Source of the DNA: Aurantiochytrium sp. KH105
Lineage: Eukaryota; Sar; Bigyra; Thraustochytrida; Thraustochytriidae
Assembly (NCBI GenBank): GCA_003116975.1
Contig: BGKB01000154.1
Span: forward strand, 34,346-98,345
Reading direction: 5' to 3'
DNA length: 64,000 nt
Shown here: positions 49,719-63,135 of the stretch, one piece after another
How the letters are laid out: the number at the start of each line of letters is the position of its first letter
Numbering within the stretch: the first letter of the stretch is position 1
Notes under the pieces: model-generated
What the model was told of the DNA's origin: nothing
The model's input: the letters and a program-made list of their open reading frames with translations, nothing else
Database searches by the model: none
Program-made: the position numbers and the translations under genes

Positions 49719-51905
49719 TCATCGAACTTTGAGTTTGCCAGAATTTTGACGCGCTTCGTGGAAAGCAATGCTGTCAAGGTCGATGCCATAGCGCGGATTA
49801 CTCTCGACACGCACGATGCTTCGACGTTTGCGGAAAAGACCTTTGCCATCTTGGTCAGCAGGGTTCGCGCCGTCATCGTCCTCATCGTTGTGGTAGTCAT
49901 CCTCGACGTCGCCACCATACTCGTAGCCCTCAAAGTCATGTTCCCGATCCCCCATGTAGTTTTCGAGATGAGCGCTGCTCGAGCTGCGAGCCTCCTCGAA
50001 GCCCTCATCATCTGCAGTTCCAAGCTGTTTCACCAAAGCTCTACGAACGCTGCCGACGGATCCGAGGTCCGAGTCCATCGAGTCCAACGAGTCCATCGAG
50101 TTCTGCCGGTGGTGATGAAGGGATTGGCGAAGGTTTGCGAGATTGTCCGAGCTGTCAAGACGCACGCGGTGCACGACGTGCAATTTGAATTGACTCGCTT
50201 TCAGTACCGAGTAGTAGCTGCCAAACCAAAAGACAAAGCAAGCAAAAGCCGTAATCTCAAAACTGGCGGCGATCTTCTTGTAAAATCGGCCCACCTCCTT
50301 CGGTGGTCTCTCCACGAGCACATACGTCATCGGTCCCAGGAATCCCATGACGGACACAATGAGAAGCACCGAGATGAGAAGGCGTGCCTTTCGCGTCATG
50401 GGCATCGAGAGGCTGAATCGCAAATCAAGCAATGTCTCCATCACCACGTGAATCATGCCAAAGACGAAAAAGAGCGCCGCAAAGGTATTGTGCGCGGCGG
50501 CGTGGGCATTGTGCTGAAAGGCTGCGACCCCATTGCCGCAAAAAGTGGACAAGAGCCCAAACGCGGTGGCGATGCGATGGGTTCGCATCCAGTTGCGGCC
50601 GCGCAGCTGTTTTTTGACGAGCTTGTGTTTGACGAAAATGATCACCGAAAGCATGGACAGCGTCGTCGTGAGACCCAGGGTCCCAATGTTGGAAGCCGGC
50701 GCGACATCGAGGCTGGCGCTAATGAAGAATCCCTTTTCGTCAAAGATAGTCATGCTCATCTCATCGTCAATGTAAATGGTGCTGGAAATGTAGTACGTGA
50801 TGGCCAGCGTGACGAGCGGCAAGATTACCCCTGCCATGAGAAAAGACGCTGGACGCATCTGGTTCTCCATGTCAATGTGCCGAGTCAGCCTCGTGAGCAT
50901 TTTAGATCGCGCCTCGACGCGTGCCAGCTTTTCTTGTTGCCGCTGGGCGTGGAGCTGCGTGCGTTGGTCGAGAATAAAATCGTGAAAAACGCTGCTCGAT
51001 ACCATGGTACGCGAGGCGAGCATTTCGGCAGCAGCCTCCAGTTTAGCGATCGTTTCGCATTCTGCGCTGCACTCGCTCTGGAGCTTGCGGAGCAACGGCT
51101 TGTACGAGAGAACCATTTCGGGCGCCGCGGAGGCGTCCTCTTCCCTCTTTTCATCTCCCTTCGAGCTTGCGACATTGGATGACCCGTGTCCTCGCATCTC
51201 TTCCTCGCCCTCGTCCTCGCTGCTGCTGCTGCTGCTGTACGAGTCAATGCCGGGCTTGTGCGTGCCGTGCGTGCCGTCTCCATTCGGCGAGTCGCTCGAG
51301 CCGATTGTGTACACGCGCCTGCGCAGCATGTGCTTGGCGCAGTGTTCGCCGCATGGCGCAGACTCGACGTCGACCACAGAGAGAACGCGTTTTTTGAACT
51401 TTTTGATGGCCTTTTCCATGGCCATGTCATTGACGACGACAAAGCGCCGCAGCGCCTCGAGCGTGTCAAGAAAGACCGCAAAGCGCGCCAGCAAGTTGAC
51501 CTCCTTGCACCCCGGGTATAGATTTGGTTCGCCCTTGACGCGGAGCTCGTTGAGAAGCTCCAGCACGTTGGGTTGGATATTGTTGTAGAACGAGACTTGC
51601 AGGCCATGCACTGTCGAGCTCAGGAAACCGCGCACGTGTGCAACGTCTTCGAGCATGATGGAAGAGAAAAGGCTCCATCGCTTGCACAGCGTGCAGTTCA
51701 TTTCGGCATCCTGCAAGCCTCGGAGGAGCTTCTTCTTTTTCTTGCGCGGGAATACCATGAGCGCCTCTTCGAGAAGTCGCGAGTCGGCATCTTTGCCCAG
51801 CAACGAGAGCACCTTGATCATCTTCTTCAGTGCGCGGTATCGCACATAGTGCTCCTCCCATCGAGGCTCTGCGAGGTCATCTTCGAGCCTCTTCCCGAAC
51901 TTCAT
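49719..51905 (-). CDS. SPX domain fused to a six-span DRAM/Frag1/SFK1-like membrane domain
   Basis: The protein has 728 residues from the ATG at 51905. It begins MKFGKRLEDD, the usual opening of SPX proteins, with YVRYRALKKMIKVL as the first helix and NDMAMEKAIKKFKKRVLSV (about 157-175) as the Lys-rich helix that binds inositol pyrophosphates in known SPX domains. A poly-Ser/Glu linker (about 203-240) interrupts the region before a last helical hairpin. Residues about 354-565 hold six membrane spans; the first loop (IFDEKGFFISASLDVAPASNIGTLG) and the HNTFAALFFVFGMIH span resemble DRAM/TMEM150/Frag1/SFK1 proteins. Known SPX fusions are to EXS, VTC, MFS or anion-transporter domains, not this. 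The C-tail (566-728) is acidic. Phosphate-sensing membrane function is inferred. Confidence 0.8.
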   Translation of the reverse strand: MKFGKRLEDDLAEPRWEEHYVRYRALKKMIKVLSLLGKDADSRLLEEALMVFPRKKKKKLLRGLQDAEMNCTLCKRWSLFSSIMLEDVAHVRGFLSSTVHGLQVSFYNNIQPNVLELLNELRVKGEPNLYPGCKEVNLLARFAVFLDTLEALRRFVVVNDMAMEKAIKKFKKRVLSVVDVESAPCGEHCAKHMLRRRVYTIGSSDSPNGDGTHGTHKPGIDSYSSSSSSEDEGEEEMRGHGSSNVASSKGDEKREEDASAAPEMVLSYKPLLRKLQSECSAECETIAKLEAAAEMLASRTMVSSSVFHDFILDQRTQLHAQRQQEKLARVEARSKMLTRLTRHIDMENQMRPASFLMAGVILPLVTLAITYYISSTIYIDDEMSMTIFDEKGFFISASLDVAPASNIGTLGLTTTLSMLSVIIFVKHKLVKKQLRGRNWMRTHRIATAFGLLSTFCGNGVAAFQHNAHAAAHNTFAALFFVFGMIHVVMETLLDLRFSLSMPMTRKARLLISVLLIVSVMGFLGPMTYVLVERPPKEVGRFYKKIAASFEITAFACFVFWFGSYYSVLKASQFKLHVVHRVRLDSSDNLANLRQSLHHHRQNSMDSLDSMDSDLGSVGSVRRALVKQLGTADDEGFEEARSSSSAHLENYMGDREHDFEGYEYGGDVEDDYHNDEDDDGANPADQDGKGLFRKRRSIVRVESNPRYGIDLDSIAFHEARQNSGKLKVR

Positions 51906-52754
51906 GCTGTCGTCCCTGAGGCTCGCCTCGCCTCGCGACTTTCGAACACGCCGCGGGCAACGAACTCGCTCGCTTCGCTTCCGTTCGCGCTCCCGCTGAG
52001 CAGAGCGTGCACGAGTGCCAGGTAGGCACAGCGAGCGAGCGCGCGAGCGTGCTCTGCGCTCTGCGCGCGGCCTCTCCGGACTTGTTGCAGAGCTGCTGGC
52101 CGCAGGCTGCGCTCCTCGTGAGCGTCCGCGCACCCAAGCTGCTCGCTCGCTCGCTCGCTTGGGCCGCGTCGACCTCGACCTCGCCCTGGTCGCCTCGCCC
52201 GGCGCCGCGCGCGCGCGCTGCCCGCTTGCCTGCCCGCCCGGGCTCCCGCGTCCGCGTCCGCGCTTGCTCGCTTGCTCGCGCGCTCGCGCGCTCGCAACTC
52301 CGGCGAGGATTGGCGATTTGCTTTTTTGTCTCGATCAATGTCTCCGACTCGGAGTCCTCCTTCGAGTGGGTGCGTGGCTTTTTTCTTCTTGGCTTCTTCT
52401 TTGCCATCTTCACTTCAAGTTGTGTACAAAAGTGGGACTTGCAGTTCCTTCCAGGACCACGTCACCGCGCACAAGCGGCCGCACCATGGCCAGACAGAAA
52501 GAAAGTCAACCCAAACTAGTCACCGTGCGGATCGGGCGCGCCCTACGAGTAGAAGTGCGTTGTGTGGCGACGAGAATGCGGTTGGTTGTAAAGCTGAGCT
52601 GCGAGGAGCACACACCAAAGCGAGCAACAACAGAAAAAAAGAAAAGGAAAAAAAAAGTTTTCTCGAGTCGATCGATACACGCCGTCGAGCATGCGACCAA
52701 AATCAGCAAAAGAAAAAAAGCTCAACATCGTTTCCTATTTTGGTGGAGTGCGTA
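51906..52754. other. Intergenic, 5' flank of SPX gene and 3' flank of ROCO gene
   Basis: GC-rich near the SPX start with GCTCGCTCGCTCGCTTG (about 52142-52158), AT-richer toward 52700. No gene recognised. Confidence 0.5.
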
Positions 52755-55700
52755 CTACGCATTCTCGATGCGCGCAATGATTTCTTCGTAAAAGGCCTTG
52801 GCCAAGTACAAACGACGCTGAAAAGGCATGGACTCCTTCTCCTTGAAAAGATGCTTGGCCGATGCCGGAGCAGCATCAATGTAAGCGGAGAAATTGGCGA
52901 ACCCCGGACGATTCGGATCACTCTCGTGCACAACCAAAATAGGTTTCCCCTCTTCTAGTGCCGTTTCGAGTTCCATGCGAACGGCGCCCTCGAACACCGT
53001 TTTGGAAAGGAAGAGCACATAGCACTTGGACTCGCGGATGCCTCGCTTCATTGCATCCTCTGCGAGGTTGCCCTCGGTCTCCTGGTCAATCCAGACATGA
53101 AGTCCACGCTTGCGAAGCTTCTCCGCCATGAGGTTGCAGGCGTCCCCTGCATCATACTGGCGATGACTCAGGAAAACATGGTACTCGAGCCCAGCAGCAA
53201 GCGGAATATTCTCCTTTTCCACAGAACCCGTGTCCACCTCATCTTCCGTCAATGAGCCGTCCTCAAAAAAGGGAGCAAACTCTGGAACTTTGGCATTTCT
53301 CGTTCCCGTAGACATGACGAGGCATTTCCCGGATTCGCGCGCCTCGACCATGTCGTTATACCTGACCAGCACGGAGTCGTCTGAAGGGGACTGCAACAGG
53401 AGCTCCCAGGGTAAGTCTCGAAACACGGCATCGCGCGCCCCACGAAAGATACTCACTAGCGTCTTGAGCGTTGTTGCCGGTTTGTGCGCGTCTCGTGCCA
53501 TGCGAACCCATATCTTGTTGCCGTCCTCCACGAGCGCAAATACCGAGAGATCGAAGCGAACAATCGCTCGATCCCCGGCGAGCTGAGGTGCGCCCTTGCC
53601 CTTGTTCACATCTCCGCTGTACTGCGCACAAAGGGAGAGTATTCTCGCAAAGACACCGTTTGGTAGAAAAAACTCGGAAAAGTCAAGAATGCAGGTCAGA
53701 CCGGTGTCCATATCGGCGATATCTACGTCGAGACGAGAGTCTGTCGAGTTCTTGAGTAAACTGCTCACGAGGTACAGTGGCTCGTCTTGGCGCTGTCTCG
53801 GCAGCGATCTCTCCGGAAAGTTCCAGTTCGACAAGAGCGTGGCGCCGCGCATGAACTCCACAAGGTAGCCGATTTCTTCGTCATTCCACAAGTATTGGAG
53901 CAGAGCACGTGAAGCAATACCTTTATCGCGCAAAAGAGCAAAGTCATCCTCGAGCTCAAGGTCGAAAAGTCTCTCTTCAAAGTAGATATCGTTGGCATGG
54001 ATTTCGTCCGCGATCACCCGCGCCAATTTGTCCAAGAGCCATTGCGGGTTCAGCACGACCTTGTCGTGCAAGGTGTCAGTGGCGCGCAGGTGAACGAGCA
54101 TGCCAAGATCGTGGAAAAACTTGAGAAGCTCGTCTGTCTGGTCGCCAGCGTGATACTGCTCCGCCAGTTCCTGCACCGTTGCAAAGGGCACGTGATTGTA
54201 GTCGAGCTTTAACAGGTCGTCGATGACCTTGAGCCAGCGCAGCGAGATCTTTTGCGAGACGGACTCGAGCTTTGACGCGGACTTTTCGACGGCACGACGC
54301 AGTTCGATGGCACGGTCTGCCGCAGGACTCATGTTATCGATCGGGAAAAAGCTCAGTGTCTGCTCTTGATTTTTTATGAGTTTGACACCGCGCAGCGCTT
54401 TCAGATCATTCCGCAGAGTCGTTTCCACTGCCTGCAGATTGCCCTGGTTGGAGACTTGGTCGTAGTGCGTTCCAACCAAAAGGATAGGGGCCTTGGGCGC
54501 GTGCAGCTTGACCGAGTTGAGCCAAAAGGATAGATACTTCAAAGCTTGCTCTTGCTTGGTGAGGAGTTCTTGCATGTCAAAGACGAGCATGAAGATGCCG
54601 CCCTCGCGCGTGAGGAAAATGTGGTGCAGCGCGTAAAAGACCTCCTGACCCGCATAGTCCCAGATCGTAAAGTAGATCTTCTGGCCCGACTGTGTCTTGC
54701 CGGCCATGTTCCCGATCTCCTCAATGTCGAAGCGCCGCGCCACCTCGGCCTCAGGCACCAAATCCACCTGCACCTCTGCAACGAAGGGTTGCGTCGCAGC
54801 AGAAGAATGTTGGCGGACGGCACTTGAAAGGCCACGGGACACGGGTCTGGGCAGCGATTGCCGCTTCTTGCTCGCCGTTTGCTCCTGCACGGCCATGCGC
54901 AGCGCCGCCACGCGATACGCCTGGCGTTCAAATCCGCTGTCGAGATTCTTGATCTCCTCCCAGGACTCTGCATCGGTGCGCTTGAGCTTGACGCCCACCG
55001 TCGAGAGGTGCTCCGCCACGGGCGCCATGCCCAGCAGCGAGCGCACCACGGATGTCTTGCCGGCAGCGCCCTGGCCGATGACCATGAGCTTGCAGCGGCC
55101 CAGTTCCGCGGGGTCTCCGTTCGCCAGCGCCGCCTTGAGCGCCTCCTCCGCCGCCACAGAAGCCGCGGCCGTCGCAGCGGCGCCAAGCACTTCCTCGATG
55201 GGCCGCGCGGCTTCCGTGCCGTCCAGCACACGCGTCGAGGCGCCCGTCTCCGCGTCCCAGATGCGCACGCTGCAGTCGTAAGATCCGCTCACGATCTCCG
55301 ACCCCAAGAGAGAGACCGCCCGCACAACGCTCGAGTGACCTTGCAAGACGTGCATCACGTCTCCGTTGCGCGCATCCCAGACTCTGACCGTGTTGTCCCA
55401 GGACGCGCTCACGACGCAGTCTCCCTCGAGCGCGACAGAGCGCACCCATTTGGTGTGTCCTTCGAGGACGCGGACGAGCTGGAAGGAAGGCACGGCGTAG
55501 ACCCTCACCTTGTAGTCGTCGGACCCGCTCACCATGCGCTGCGCGTCGATCGCGACCGCGTAGACCTCGCCTGTCGCCTCCGTGAGGACGTGGCGTGGGT
55601 CGCCGCTGGCCCGGTCGAAGACGCGCACGGTGTTGTCCTCCAACCCGGCCACGAGCTGGTTCTCGTGCGCGGCAACGCTCCAGACCCACGCCCCGGCGTC

Positions 55701-56066
55701 GATCCTCAAGGTCTCTCGGCCGCTGATCGTGTCCCAGGCGCGGACGGTCTTGTCCCACGACACGGAGATGATCTCGTTGCCGTCGAAGAGGACGCCCATG
55801 ACACCGTGGCTGTGGCCCTTGAGGGCGTGCAGGATGGCGGCGGAGGCCATGTCGATCAGGAAGAGGCCGCCTGCGCTAGTCCCCATGGCGGCCAGCTTGC
55901 CCTGCACGGCCACTGCGTAGGCCTCCATGTTGTCGGGCGTCTCCATCTCCAGGACGAGGCCGCCGTCCCTCTTGCTCCACGCGCGCAAGTGGCAGTCGCC
56001 GCAGGCGGCCAGCGCGAGGTCGGCGGACTGCGTGACGCCGTACACGACGCGCAGGATGCGGCCCAT
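52755..56066 (-). CDS. WD40-ROCO(Roc-COR)-TIR protein
   Basis: The protein has 1103 residues from the ATG at 56066 (context GCCGCCATGGGC). Residues 1-300 form about seven WD40 repeats (for example ISVSWDKTVRAWD, VSASWDNTVRVWD, VSGSYDCSVRIWD). A Roc GTPase follows from about 322: P-loop VIGQGAAGKTS, switch WDYAGQEVFY and the nucleotide-specificity segment VGTHYD. A COR region (about 590-830) contains the typical LNPQWLLDKLARVI. The C-terminal about 145 residues (from about 958) are a TIR domain: EYHVFLSHRQYDAGDACNLM, GLHVWIDQE, CYVLFLSKTVFE and VRMELETALEEGKPILVV. The Glu in RMELETAL is where TIR NAD-cleaving enzymes have their catalytic Glu. Sensor (WD40), GTPase switch (ROCO) and effector (TIR) in one chain resemble innate-immune receptors. 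Function is not shown. Confidence 0.9.
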   Translation of the reverse strand: MGRILRVVYGVTQSADLALAACGDCHLRAWSKRDGGLVLEMETPDNMEAYAVAVQGKLAAMGTSAGGLFLIDMASAAILHALKGHSHGVMGVLFDGNEIISVSWDKTVRAWDTISGRETLRIDAGAWVWSVAAHENQLVAGLEDNTVRVFDRASGDPRHVLTEATGEVYAVAIDAQRMVSGSDDYKVRVYAVPSFQLVRVLEGHTKWVRSVALEGDCVVSASWDNTVRVWDARNGDVMHVLQGHSSVVRAVSLLGSEIVSGSYDCSVRIWDAETGASTRVLDGTEAARPIEEVLGAAATAAASVAAEEALKAALANGDPAELGRCKLMVIGQGAAGKTSVVRSLLGMAPVAEHLSTVGVKLKRTDAESWEEIKNLDSGFERQAYRVAALRMAVQEQTASKKRQSLPRPVSRGLSSAVRQHSSAATQPFVAEVQVDLVPEAEVARRFDIEEIGNMAGKTQSGQKIYFTIWDYAGQEVFYALHHIFLTREGGIFMLVFDMQELLTKQEQALKYLSFWLNSVKLHAPKAPILLVGTHYDQVSNQGNLQAVETTLRNDLKALRGVKLIKNQEQTLSFFPIDNMSPAADRAIELRRAVEKSASKLESVSQKISLRWLKVIDDLLKLDYNHVPFATVQELAEQYHAGDQTDELLKFFHDLGMLVHLRATDTLHDKVVLNPQWLLDKLARVIADEIHANDIYFEERLFDLELEDDFALLRDKGIASRALLQYLWNDEEIGYLVEFMRGATLLSNWNFPERSLPRQRQDEPLYLVSSLLKNSTDSRLDVDIADMDTGLTCILDFSEFFLPNGVFARILSLCAQYSGDVNKGKGAPQLAGDRAIVRFDLSVFALVEDGNKIWVRMARDAHKPATTLKTLVSIFRGARDAVFRDLPWELLLQSPSDDSVLVRYNDMVEARESGKCLVMSTGTRNAKVPEFAPFFEDGSLTEDEVDTGSVEKENIPLAAGLEYHVFLSHRQYDAGDACNLMAEKLRKRGLHVWIDQETEGNLAEDAMKRGIRESKCYVLFLSKTVFEGAVRMELETALEEGKPILVVHESDPNRPGFANFSAYIDAAPASAKHLFKEKESMPFQRRLYLAKAFYEEIIARIENA

Positions 56067-61095: not shown

Positions 61096-63135
61096 ATGGC
61101 GTCCGAAGGGGCCTCGGAGAAGAAAAAGTCAAAGCTCGAGATGATCGTGGAGCAGCGCAAGCTGGACGTCGCTGATGCGAGCAAGACCGTGGAGGCGAAG
61201 CAGCTAAAGGAGCTGATCAAGGTCCGCGAAATGGAGCTCGGTGACCCTTTGGACTTGTTCGAGGCCATCAAAGAGCATGGCGAGCGCATCGACGAGATGT
61301 TCGTTGCCGCCGAATTCAAGCGCGCATCTCCGAGTAAGGGCGACATTGCCACCGACCTCGACCCGGCCGAGCAAGCAGCAAAGTATGCCAAGGCCGGCGC
61401 TGGTCTCGTGTCCGTGCTTACAGAACCAAAGTGGTTCAAGGGAACGCTTGACGATATGCTTGCCGTGCGCAGGGCCGTCGACGAGATCACTCAGCTCGGC
61501 GGCTTTCGCACGCTCGTGCTGCGCAAAGATTTTATCGTCGACGAGTACCAGCTGCTCGAAGCACGCGCATACGGCGCCGACACTGTTCTTCTCATGCTGA
61601 GCGTGCTCAATGAAGACCAGCTGACGGCGCTGCTGAAGCGCTCGCGTGAGCTCAAGATGGAGCCTCTTGTCGAAGTTGTCAACGAGGAGGAGACAGAGAT
61701 TGCTCTGCGCGCCGGCGCCAAGGTTCTTGGTGTGAACAACCGCAACCTGCACACCTTCAAAGTTGATATGGAGACGACCCCGCGCATTGCACGCATTGTG
61801 CAGGAAGCCGGAGAGGCCGCGTCGACCCGTGTCCTGGCCCTCAGCGGAATCAAGTCCCGCGAGGATGTGCGCAAGTACGAGGAGCACGGTGGAATTAGCG
61901 GTCTGCTCGTGGGCGAGACGCTCATGCGCGCCCCTAATCCCACCGAGATGATTTCCAGTCTCGTGCGCGAGACGACTGCGCAGGAGCAAGCACCTCTTGT
62001 GAAGATTTGCGGCATGAATGACCCGGACGCAGCGCTTACTGCCGCAAAGGCAGGTGCTGACATGATTGGGCTCATTTTCGTGAAAAAGTCATCGCGGTAC
62101 GTGGATATGGAGACTGCAAAGAAGATTGTGAGCGTGATTCGCGACTATCGGGAGCGCGAGGGCCGTATCGACCTTATGTCAGTTTTTGCGGGCTCGGCCT
62201 CAGGAGATGCGCGCCCCTGCGGCAAGGAATGCGGGGGCGGCAAGGGCAAATGCTGCGGCAACGGCCAGACCAAGGTTCGAAAGTCTCGGCGGAGAAAGGG
62301 CAGTCACAAGAACAAGAGCTCCTCCAAGGACAGCGAGGAAAGCTCGAAACCTGCAAACGGTGCAAACGAGATCGAGTCCTCTGTAATCGAATCCCGGGCC
62401 AATGATCATAAATCTGCTGATCAAAAGCAGAGAGGAAGTGCGGACGTGAATGGTCTTGATGAGGATGAGGTCGAAGTCGAAGATGACGAGGATGAAGACG
62501 ATGTCGATGAGGACGAGGCCGAGCGCAGGAACGCTGGCAAGCGCGTGCGCGTTGAAAAGTCGTGGTTCCAGCTCTGGGGCGACATCATCAGCCAGGCATG
62601 TCGCGGTCAAGCGCGGCCTCTGCTCGTGGGCGTTTTTATGAACCAGCCGCTCGACGAGGTGAACAAGCTCGCGCTTGAGGCAGGCGTGGACCTGATTCAG
62701 CTGCACAGCTCGGAGGCTCCCGAGTACGAGGCACAGTGCGCCTTGCCGGTGATTCGTGTTGTCCACGTCGATGCGCAGGCTACTGCCTCGGAAGAGATCC
62801 TGCCCATTGACGCTGCCGCTCTTGAGAAAGGACCCGCCAGCGCGCTCTTGCTCGACACGAGCATCAAGGGCGGCGCTACGGGAGGCACAGGCAAAACGTT
62901 TGACTGGAATATTGCGAAAAAGCTAGCAGAACGCGATAGCCTGCCCCTCGTCATGGCGGGAGGTCTGACCCCAGAAAATGTTGCCGAAGCTGTGGCGGTT
63001 GCCAAACCCTGGTGCGTTGATGTGGCCAGTGGCGTTGAGGCTAGCGCCGGCGTCAAGGACCACGACAAGATTCGCGCTTTCGTCAAGGCCGCAAAGGATA
63101 CGAGCGCTGCCGCGCCCGCCACTTCATCATCATAA
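61096..63135 (+). CDS. TRPC: Indole-3-glycerol-phosphate synthase / phosphoribosylanthranilate isomerase fusion
   Basis: The protein has 679 residues. The N-terminal half (about 15-290) is IGPS: EFKRASPSKGDI (catalytic Lys region), VLRKDFIVDEYQ, VGVNNRNL-like GVNNRNLHTF and ALSGI. The second half is PRAI: VKICGMND with the catalytic Cys (about 300), LIFVKKSSRYV, VGVFMNQ, DLIQLHSSE, LLLDTS with the catalytic Asp, and MAGGLTPENV. IGPS-PRAI order is as in enterobacterial TrpC(F). These catalyse two consecutive steps of tryptophan synthesis. An insertion of about 120 residues (365-488) sits inside PRAI between the helix after LIFVKK and the VGVFMNQ strand. It begins with a Cys-rich PCGKECGGGKGKCCGNG, then basic, Ser/Asn-rich, then acidic. 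All expected catalytic blocks are kept, so activity is likely. Confidence 0.95.
   Translation: MASEGASEKKKSKLEMIVEQRKLDVADASKTVEAKQLKELIKVREMELGDPLDLFEAIKEHGERIDEMFVAAEFKRASPSKGDIATDLDPAEQAAKYAKAGAGLVSVLTEPKWFKGTLDDMLAVRRAVDEITQLGGFRTLVLRKDFIVDEYQLLEARAYGADTVLLMLSVLNEDQLTALLKRSRELKMEPLVEVVNEEETEIALRAGAKVLGVNNRNLHTFKVDMETTPRIARIVQEAGEAASTRVLALSGIKSREDVRKYEEHGGISGLLVGETLMRAPNPTEMISSLVRETTAQEQAPLVKICGMNDPDAALTAAKAGADMIGLIFVKKSSRYVDMETAKKIVSVIRDYREREGRIDLMSVFAGSASGDARPCGKECGGGKGKCCGNGQTKVRKSRRRKGSHKNKSSSKDSEESSKPANGANEIESSVIESRANDHKSADQKQRGSADVNGLDEDEVEVEDDEDEDDVDEDEAERRNAGKRVRVEKSWFQLWGDIISQACRGQARPLLVGVFMNQPLDEVNKLALEAGVDLIQLHSSEAPEYEAQCALPVIRVVHVDAQATASEEILPIDAAALEKGPASALLLDTSIKGGATGGTGKTFDWNIAKKLAERDSLPLVMAGGLTPENVAEAVAVAKPWCVDVASGVEASAGVKDHDKIRAFVKAAKDTSAAAPATSSS

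Follow-up and report, generated by a model that had tools for sequence, protein, structure and literature searches.

The present analysis concerns a stretch of 64,000 nucleotides from the thraustochytrid Aurantiochytrium sp. KH105 (assembly GCA_003116975.1, contig BGKB01000154.1, positions 34,346 to 98,345 of the forward strand), referred to here as the window, and one gene within it that encodes a WD40 propeller, a Roc GTPase domain, a COR region and a TIR domain on a single chain. The gene is one copy of a large family in which the contact face of the propeller is hypervariable. It is quite likely that the window gene is one member of a repertoire of intracellular receptors, for non-self or for allorecognition, built on a ROCO GTPase; defence and allorecognition are not separable on the present data. 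A receptor with a repeat sensor, a nucleotide switch and a death-type effector is a known kind of protein; a ROCO-TIR protein with a hypervariable propeller appears to be a new form of it. A first-pass annotation of the window had described a WD40 sensor, a ROCO switch and a TIR effector on one chain, and its account of the gene is confirmed, but the place of the gene in a large repertoire was missed.

Results

A gene family with a hypervariable propeller face

The assembly searched comprises 76.0 Mb in 367 contigs. At least 42 genes, the window gene included, match the full protein (43 rows of matches, two rows being one gene), and apart from the match of the gene to itself the identity is 68-87%. 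This number is a lower bound because only 42 of the 625 candidates were scored. In 39 of the 42 copies the matched stretch is one continuous frame with no stop, which makes it unlikely that the WD40 and TIR parts are separate genes. When the parts were used singly as queries and the places tallied by hand from the listed matches, Roc was found at 58 places with at least 67% identity over nearly the whole query, with shorter or lower matches beyond (139 of 139 candidates scored), and TIR at 67 places or more with at least 63% identity over 138 or more of its 143 residues, two stops being present at one of these places (150 of 201 candidates scored). It should be noted here that both haplotypes are present at many places of the assembly. 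The IGPS gene adjoining the window gene recurs on contig C26 as a 98% copy, which stands equally far from the receptor L034 (5.03 and 5.07 kb), and matches to a PfaA-type polyunsaturated fatty acid synthase (best 930 bits, family cut-off 1010) lie on contig pairs. Gene copies therefore do not equal loci, and the number of loci is smaller than that of copies.

Forty copies were aligned. L047 and L073, which carry in-frame stops, and L049, which is the first gene of L074, were left out, and of L067 only the open part was used. Within residues 1-284 there are 36 positions with an entropy of at least 1.5 bits, and the variable positions recur about every 40 residues. On a mapping of the R1 and D positions onto the blades that is our own and was made after the pattern had been seen, all 21 of the R1-2, R1 and D-1 sites of the seven blades have an entropy of at least 2.2 bits, against a median of 0.17 for the other propeller positions. 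With D+1 included, 24 of the 28 propeller positions that vary most are face sites (hypergeometric P 9e-27), the remaining four being 26, 65, 206 and 246; the Asp position of blade 2 varies as well, and residue 66, taken as D+1 in the statistics, is not variable while residue 65 is. Over 741 pairs, the 28 face sites show 20.4% identity and the remainder of the WD40 part 87.0%, and the 40 sequences display 38 distinct faces. The framework around these sites is kept: 38-40 of the 40 copies have Val at R1-1 (Ala in blade 2), and in six of the seven blades 31-39 of them have Asp at D. Face residues are enriched in Asn, Gly, Tyr, Arg and Trp and depleted in Ile, Met and Pro.

The top faces of WD40 propellers bind proteins or peptides. 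In the model of blades 3-7 obtained with AlphaFold2, the face sites occupy the b-c turn and the beginning of strand a, two places on the same side of a propeller. R1-2, R1 and D-1 have been described as the contact sites of the WD40 top face, through which WD40 proteins commonly bind other proteins (PMC3419727). The predicted role of the WD40 part as sensor, proposed in the first-pass annotation, is strongly supported by this hypervariable contact face across the family.

Selection, alleles and exchange between copies

By a counting estimate over 780 pairs, which is rough at saturated face codons, the 36 variable codons have a dN/dS (ratio of replacement to silent change) of 2.55, with proportions of replacement (pN) and silent (pS) differences of 0.53 and 0.29. 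In the rest of the WD40 part, the framework, pN is 0.055 and pS 0.105. In COR and TIR the pS is 0.60-0.65, with dN/dS of 0.18 (COR) and 0.11 (TIR). Silent divergence is thus about 6 times lower in the WD40 framework than in TIR, and the silent distances of the two are not correlated (Spearman 0.02; 0.39 for COR and TIR). Since the divergence of WD40 is uncoupled from that of TIR, WD40 cassettes appear to move between loci. The 5' flanks of the copies (L033-L074) are alike in 528 of 780 pairs, a count that may be inflated as these flanks are GC-rich and partly repetitive, and the 3' flanks are alike in 29 of 780; the exchanged unit may therefore include the promoter side.

Seven pairs of copies are probably allelic. 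Contig collinearity was established by hand for L033/L034, L053/L055 and L048/L054, and the pairs L057/L062, L059/L060, L043/L044 and L068/L069 were called on both 1.4-kb flanks only. In three of the seven the faces are entirely different. L048/L054 differ at 24 of the 28 face sites (TIR pS 0.111, framework silent distance 0.107), L053/L055 at 21 (0.041 and 0.074) and L057/L062 also at 21 (0.047 and 0.042). The comparison class, which consists of all 773 other pairs and may hold unrecognised alleles, has a mean of 22.5 differences out of 28, a TIR pS of 0.640 and a framework silent distance of 0.105. Compared in 22 full windows of 50 codons, the DNA of the window gene and that of its allele L034 are 94-99% identical in 15, and the other seven form a bounded divergent block at residues 501-850 with 54-88% identity. 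L037 and the first gene of L074 differ at 3 of 28 face sites, yet have diverged in COR and TIR. Judging from such comparisons, exchange reaches beyond the WD40 segment. The simplest account would be a shared pool of WD40 segments that gene conversion or crossing-over spreads between loci, while selection maintains the differences between faces.

Sharing of whole blade motifs is weak in a set of 34 copies, from which L067 had been dropped, together with one partner from each of five pairs whose faces are alike or almost so; it was seen in 9 of 561 pairs, and exceeded chance in blades 2 and 4 only. The variable columns show no adenine bias, which argues against a diversity-generating retroelement. 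Elsewhere in the genome there are frames of about 330-740 amino acids that encode a related WD40 propeller, with no Roc match beside them among the matches listed (for example at C119:66636, C7:32146, C259, C15:584-587k and C6:241-244k), and some of them lie just upstream of a receptor. These WD40-only frames could be donor cassettes or truncated copies.

Domains of the window gene

The coordinates given for the gene in the first-pass annotation were exact, and the four parts on its single chain are each recognised by Pfam above cut-off (Table 1): WD40 (PF00400) with 97.7 bits against 27, the propeller models spanning residues 14-284; Roc (PF08477) with 72.9 against 27; COR-A (PF16095) with 50.6 against 35.3; and TIR_2 (PF13676) with 51.4 against 28. 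Profile search thus recognises both TIR and COR, on which the earlier assignment depended. The open frame extends upstream as far as 56738, and a Met stands exactly at the equivalent of Met1 in 35 of the 40 aligned copies (36 when counted by alignment column). Modelled alone from its single sequence, the propeller has block means of the AlphaFold2 confidence score (pLDDT, predicted local distance difference test) of 79-97 across residues 101-280 and values below 50 for residues 1-78, and with Foldseek the model finds WD40 propellers including Fbw7 and WDR5. A model of the full chain, made with an alignment of 32 prokaryotic ROCO relatives (A2), is usable for the Roc core and COR only, and unusable for the WD40 part, the Roc insert and TIR.

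Table 1. Features of the window and of the receptor gene (positions are those of the window; residues are those of the receptor).
Feature	Residues	Position	Strand	Basis
WD40-Roc-COR-TIR coding sequence, single open frame	1103 amino acids + stop	52755..56066	minus	frame reading, Pfam
WD40 beta-propeller, seven blades, hypervariable face	1-284	55215..56066	minus	Pfam, variability, AlphaFold2, Foldseek
Face sites, blade 1	7, 9, 23, 25			
Face sites, blade 2	48, 50, 64, 65			
Face sites, blade 3	88, 90, 104, 106			
Face sites, blade 4	127, 129, 143, 145			
Face sites, blade 5	167, 169, 183, 185			
Face sites, blade 6	207, 209, 223, 225			
Face sites, blade 7	247, 249, 263, 265			
Roc GTPase domain, including insert 366-448	321-560	54387..55106	minus	PF08477; PDB 4wnr, LRRK2
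P-loop GQGAAGKTS	331-339	55050..55076	minus	motif reading, copy conservation
Roc insert, switch I to DYAGQE	366-448	54723..54971	minus	alignment; low AlphaFold2 confidence
Switch II DYAGQE	470-475	54642..54659	minus	motif reading
G4 motif THYD	533-536	54459..54470	minus	motif reading
COR region (Pfam COR-A 610-740)	610-940	53247..54239	minus	Pfam, AlphaFold2
TIR domain and C-terminal tail	959-1103	52758..53192	minus	PF13676; profile matches TIR-1, AbTIR, SARM1
Glu1032, putative catalytic glutamate	1032	52971..52973	minus	alignment to SARM1, TIR-1, AbTIR Glu
SPX-Frag1/DRAM fusion protein		49719-51950	minus	Pfam
IGPS-PRAI fusion		61096-63135	plus	Pfam; long low-complexity insert by eye

The full set of Roc G motifs that had been read from the window gene (GQGAAGKT at 331, DYAGQE at 470, THYD at 533) is present, and the GTP-binding motifs (P-loop, Thr356, DYAGQ and THxD) are kept in 39-40 of the 40 copies. 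In the P-loop G331, K337 and T338 are each found in every copy and G336 in 39. DYAGQ is invariant and followed by E in 20 copies, D in 19 and K in one, and in the G4 motif T is kept in 39 copies and H and D in all 40. The insert in Roc, 73-95 residues long, is common to the 40 copies, which rules out an unspliced intron of one gene. The nearest solved structure by sequence search is 4wnr (1.5e-16 over Roc and COR-A), then LRRK2, then the Rab-family ROCO chains 3dpu and 6hlu. AlphaFold2 block means in the Roc core and COR are mostly 60-93, lower at 771-780 and 821-850, and residues 783-938 are mostly ordered with a dip at about 819-842. COR-B was absent from all 7 Pfam families that match the Roc-COR piece. 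With Roc directly followed by COR and the motifs intact, the predicted protein belongs to the ROCO (Roc-COR) GTPases. NACHT and NB-ARC were found neither among the 7 families of the switch region nor among the best 25 of the 46 families for the whole protein. The earlier description as NLR-like (NLR, nucleotide-binding leucine-rich repeat receptor) thus holds as an analogy, not as family membership, because the switch is a Roc-COR module with no NACHT or NB-ARC match. ROCO proteins are dimeric GTPases, and the switch role proposed for this part is made plausible by the intact G motifs and by the homology to solved ROCO structures.

A profile of 21 family TIR domains matches TIR-1 (4.4e-7), AbTIR (5.3e-7) and SARM1 (1.5e-6), whereas the TIR part searched alone gave a weak AbTIR match. 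The alignments cross the glutamate: Glu1032 falls on the 'hkE' Glu of SARM1 and TIR-1 and on the 'nyE' Glu of AbTIR, presumably the catalytic residue in all three. The assignment of a Glu in the catalytic-type position has therefore stood. Every one of the 40 aligned copies has Glu at 1032, as do all 21 TIRs of a second alignment (A6; 18 from the window family and 3 from other architectures); this conservation backs a putative effector role. TIR domains that carry this Glu cleave NAD upon clustering, and the business end of the protein is probably NAD-destroying.

Relatives in the same genome and in prokaryotes

Five TIR loci of lower match in the same genome were read. L075, L076 and L079 are ROCO-TIR proteins without a WD40 match, and L078 is a fusion of a protein kinase with TIR. 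L077 encodes actin-Roc-COR-TIR in an uninterrupted frame of 1711 amino acids or more, with TIR_2 below cut-off, and recalls an integrated decoy. Another protein, L080, has a NACHT-like domain (NPHP3_N) and 13 WD40 repeats (12 by Pfam), and its N-terminal TIR-like stretch is a weak match (3e-4). Its repeat is variable at positions 4, 5, 7, 12, 15, 21 and 23, among which 5, 7, 21 and 23 are face sites. L080 is the one copy read from a second family, NACHT-WD40, whose NACHT region was matched at 49 places, over 510 or more of its 541 residues and with 64-100% identity (76 of 76 candidates scored); both haplotypes are counted in this number, one place has a stop and several are near contig ends.

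Three scans of viral contigs found no whole-protein relatives, and a first scan of prokaryotic genome contigs with Roc-COR-TIR as query found none either; all of these scans were seeded by short peptides, exact or near-exact, and reach close relatives only. A second genome-contig scan, made with alignment A1, gave at least 32 prokaryotic loci with a tblastn match over Roc-COR. TIR_2 occurs in 4 of 33 aligned ROCO members, P0001 included, and WD40 was not among the 25 most-matched families of this 33-member scan, in which leucine-rich repeat (LRR) families and COR-B were common. Among eight prokaryotic ROCO proteins scanned singly, one carries TIR, namely L030 of Flavobacterium (LRR-Roc-COR-TIR-DUF1697). 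L017 ends in a caspase-like CHAT domain (LRR-Roc-COR-CHAT), L008 has the N-terminal effector-associated domain EAD11, and L014 is a bacterial ROCO protein with an MCU domain. The effector domains of L030 and L017 occupy the position that TIR has in the window gene, an observation in favour of the receptor explanation. The attachments of L017, L014, L008 and L030 resemble modular conflict systems.

Discussion

The data are best explained by a receptor whose sensing face is exchanged between copies. WD40 cassettes would be moved by recombination or gene conversion, and each face could bind a particular molecule of non-self or altered self, such as a viral or bacterial protein or, in allorecognition, a protein of the partner. 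Binding would relieve or drive the Roc-COR GTPase dimer, and its switching could gather the TIR domains, which once assembled may cleave NAD+ and lead to cell death or arrest, or to a nucleotide signal. The family would then be the ROCO-based counterpart, by convergence, of the fungal NACHT-WD40 receptors and the plant TIR-NLRs.

Several observations weigh against this explanation. In-frame stops occur in 3 of the 42 copies. In four of the seven probable allelic pairs the face is the same or nearly so (1 difference out of 28 in L033/L034, none in L043/L044 and L068/L069, 4 in L059/L060). The excess of replacement change comes from counting, with no likelihood test, and the low silent divergence of WD40 can reflect exchange between copies or constraint, which are not fully separated. 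Regarding the switch, G336 of the P-loop is replaced by S in L035, and switching of a ROCO dimer is known from other ROCO members only. On the effector side, the AlphaFold2 model of TIR is unreliable, with pLDDT below 50 over most of 938-1080, and residue 969 is K instead of R in 10 of the 40 copies.

The nearest parallel is found in fungi. In the fungal NACHT-WD40 repeat, positive selection acts on codons 7, 9, 25 and 27, which sit at the top of the propeller and stand on either side of codons 8 and 26, themselves under purifying selection (PMC1805685). The four positively selected codons per repeat of HET-D, HET-E and HET-R of Podospora are the same as the face sites here, the mapping of codons being our own (PMC1805685). 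By the counting method and on that mapping, the window family shows the four-codon pattern of positive selection of HET-D and HET-E. The fungal NACHT-WD40 proteins likewise form a multi-copy family with a homogenised framework and repeats exchanged between loci (PMC1805685, PMC4986451). The differences lie in the parts: NACHT is the switch there and a Roc-COR GTPase here; the effector is an N-terminal HET domain there and a C-terminal TIR with a catalytic-type Glu here; and the near-identical repeat array of the fungi is replaced by an N-terminal propeller with seven distinct blades.

This likeness bears on whether the repertoire serves allorecognition rather than defence, the receptors comparing molecules of self and partner on fusion or mating, in the manner of fungal het genes, and killing mismatched cells. 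The four face codons and the signature of concerted evolution resemble HET-D and HET-E (PMC1805685), and three probable allelic pairs with entirely different faces are what incompatibility loci would be expected to give. Against this, the copies here exceed the 10-member Podospora family (PMC1805685), and the other four pairs share the same or nearly the same face. As a narrower form of the receptor explanation we regard it as possible, though on the unlikely side. A germline system like that of antibodies is a bolder and rather improbable proposal: the propeller would be a fixed scaffold with interchangeable faces moved by directed gene conversion, the WD40-only frames would be silent donors, and the same face sites would be used in the TIR-NACHT family represented by L080.

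The role of TIR allows another view, in which it is a scaffold and not an enzyme and recruits other TIR proteins of the cell, for example the kinase-TIR protein. Many TIRs are adaptors, the genome holds many other TIR places besides this kinase-TIR, and L079, a further relative, seems by eye to have Q at the Glu position. The Glu in all 40 copies and the fact that the nearest profile matches in the PDB are NAD hydrolases speak against a scaffold, which we consider unlikely. It is more doubtful still that the propeller varies because a family of signalling scaffolds binds many endogenous partners, non-self recognition playing no part. Protein binding is a common use of top-face residues (PMC3419727), and the same or nearly the same faces in four probable allelic pairs would fit; against it stand the 21-24 differences at 28 face sites in each of the remaining three pairs and the uncoupled history of WD40 cassettes and the other parts of the gene. 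As hardly credible we set aside neutral expansion with gene conversion, or the spread of an intronless gene in the manner of a mobile element with variability as drift: uninterrupted copies on many contigs and the similar 5' flanks (GC-rich and partly repetitive as they are) agree with it, but variation lies on one face, replacement exceeds silent change there, the motifs are invariant, and the face sites would have to be mutational hotspots, of which no adenine-biased signature was seen.

Among receptors with a ROCO core, the sequence of repeat sensor, Roc-COR and then TIR is shared by the LRR-Roc-COR-TIR protein of Flavobacterium and by a TPR-ROCO-TIR (TPR, tetratricopeptide repeat) reported from Chondrus crispus (PMC11378527). 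Their sensors are LRR or TPR and not WD40, and a hypervariable propeller repertoire is not mentioned in the available text. The brown algal LRR-ROCO proteins are also candidate immune receptors on ROCO with a diversified repeat sensor, but there diversity arises through shuffling of LRR exons and splicing in an LRR-ROCO form (PMC11378527), whereas in the window family it resides in the face residues of a fixed propeller with TIR behind. Two Aplysia Toll-like proteins with ROC and COR have been reported (PMC9334734), and two thraustochytrids have 290 and 306 WD40 proteins (PMC8917795). The WD40-ROCO-TIR order or such a repertoire in this group was not found in the papers searched, and since most subscription papers and the protein databases were outside the search, absence from print is not shown. 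The earlier remark that no described system with this exact order was known in this group agrees with that search, with the reservation that a related TPR-ROCO-TIR is on record (PMC11378527).

SARM1, TIR-1 and AbTIR share with the window family the TIR domain and the aligned Glu; they differ in that residue 969 is R or K here and in that NAD cleavage here is putative. To our knowledge none of the three has WD40 or ROCO. Plant TIR-NLRs also unite sensor, nucleotide switch and TIR effector on one chain and exist in many diversified copies. They use a STAND-type ATPase and a C-terminal LRR, where the window family has a GTPase and an N-terminal WD40.

If the receptor explanation is true, a single-celled eukaryote has a large repertoire of receptors whose diversity extends to alleles, built on a ROCO GTPase; LRRK2 belongs to this class. 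It would also be an independent origin of the solution seen in HET-D and HET-E, with the same contact sites in each propeller blade. This opens the question of what protists recognise with such repertoires, and of whether ROCO proteins are immune switches at root, a direction in which bacterial LRR-ROCO-TIR and LRR-ROCO-CHAT point.

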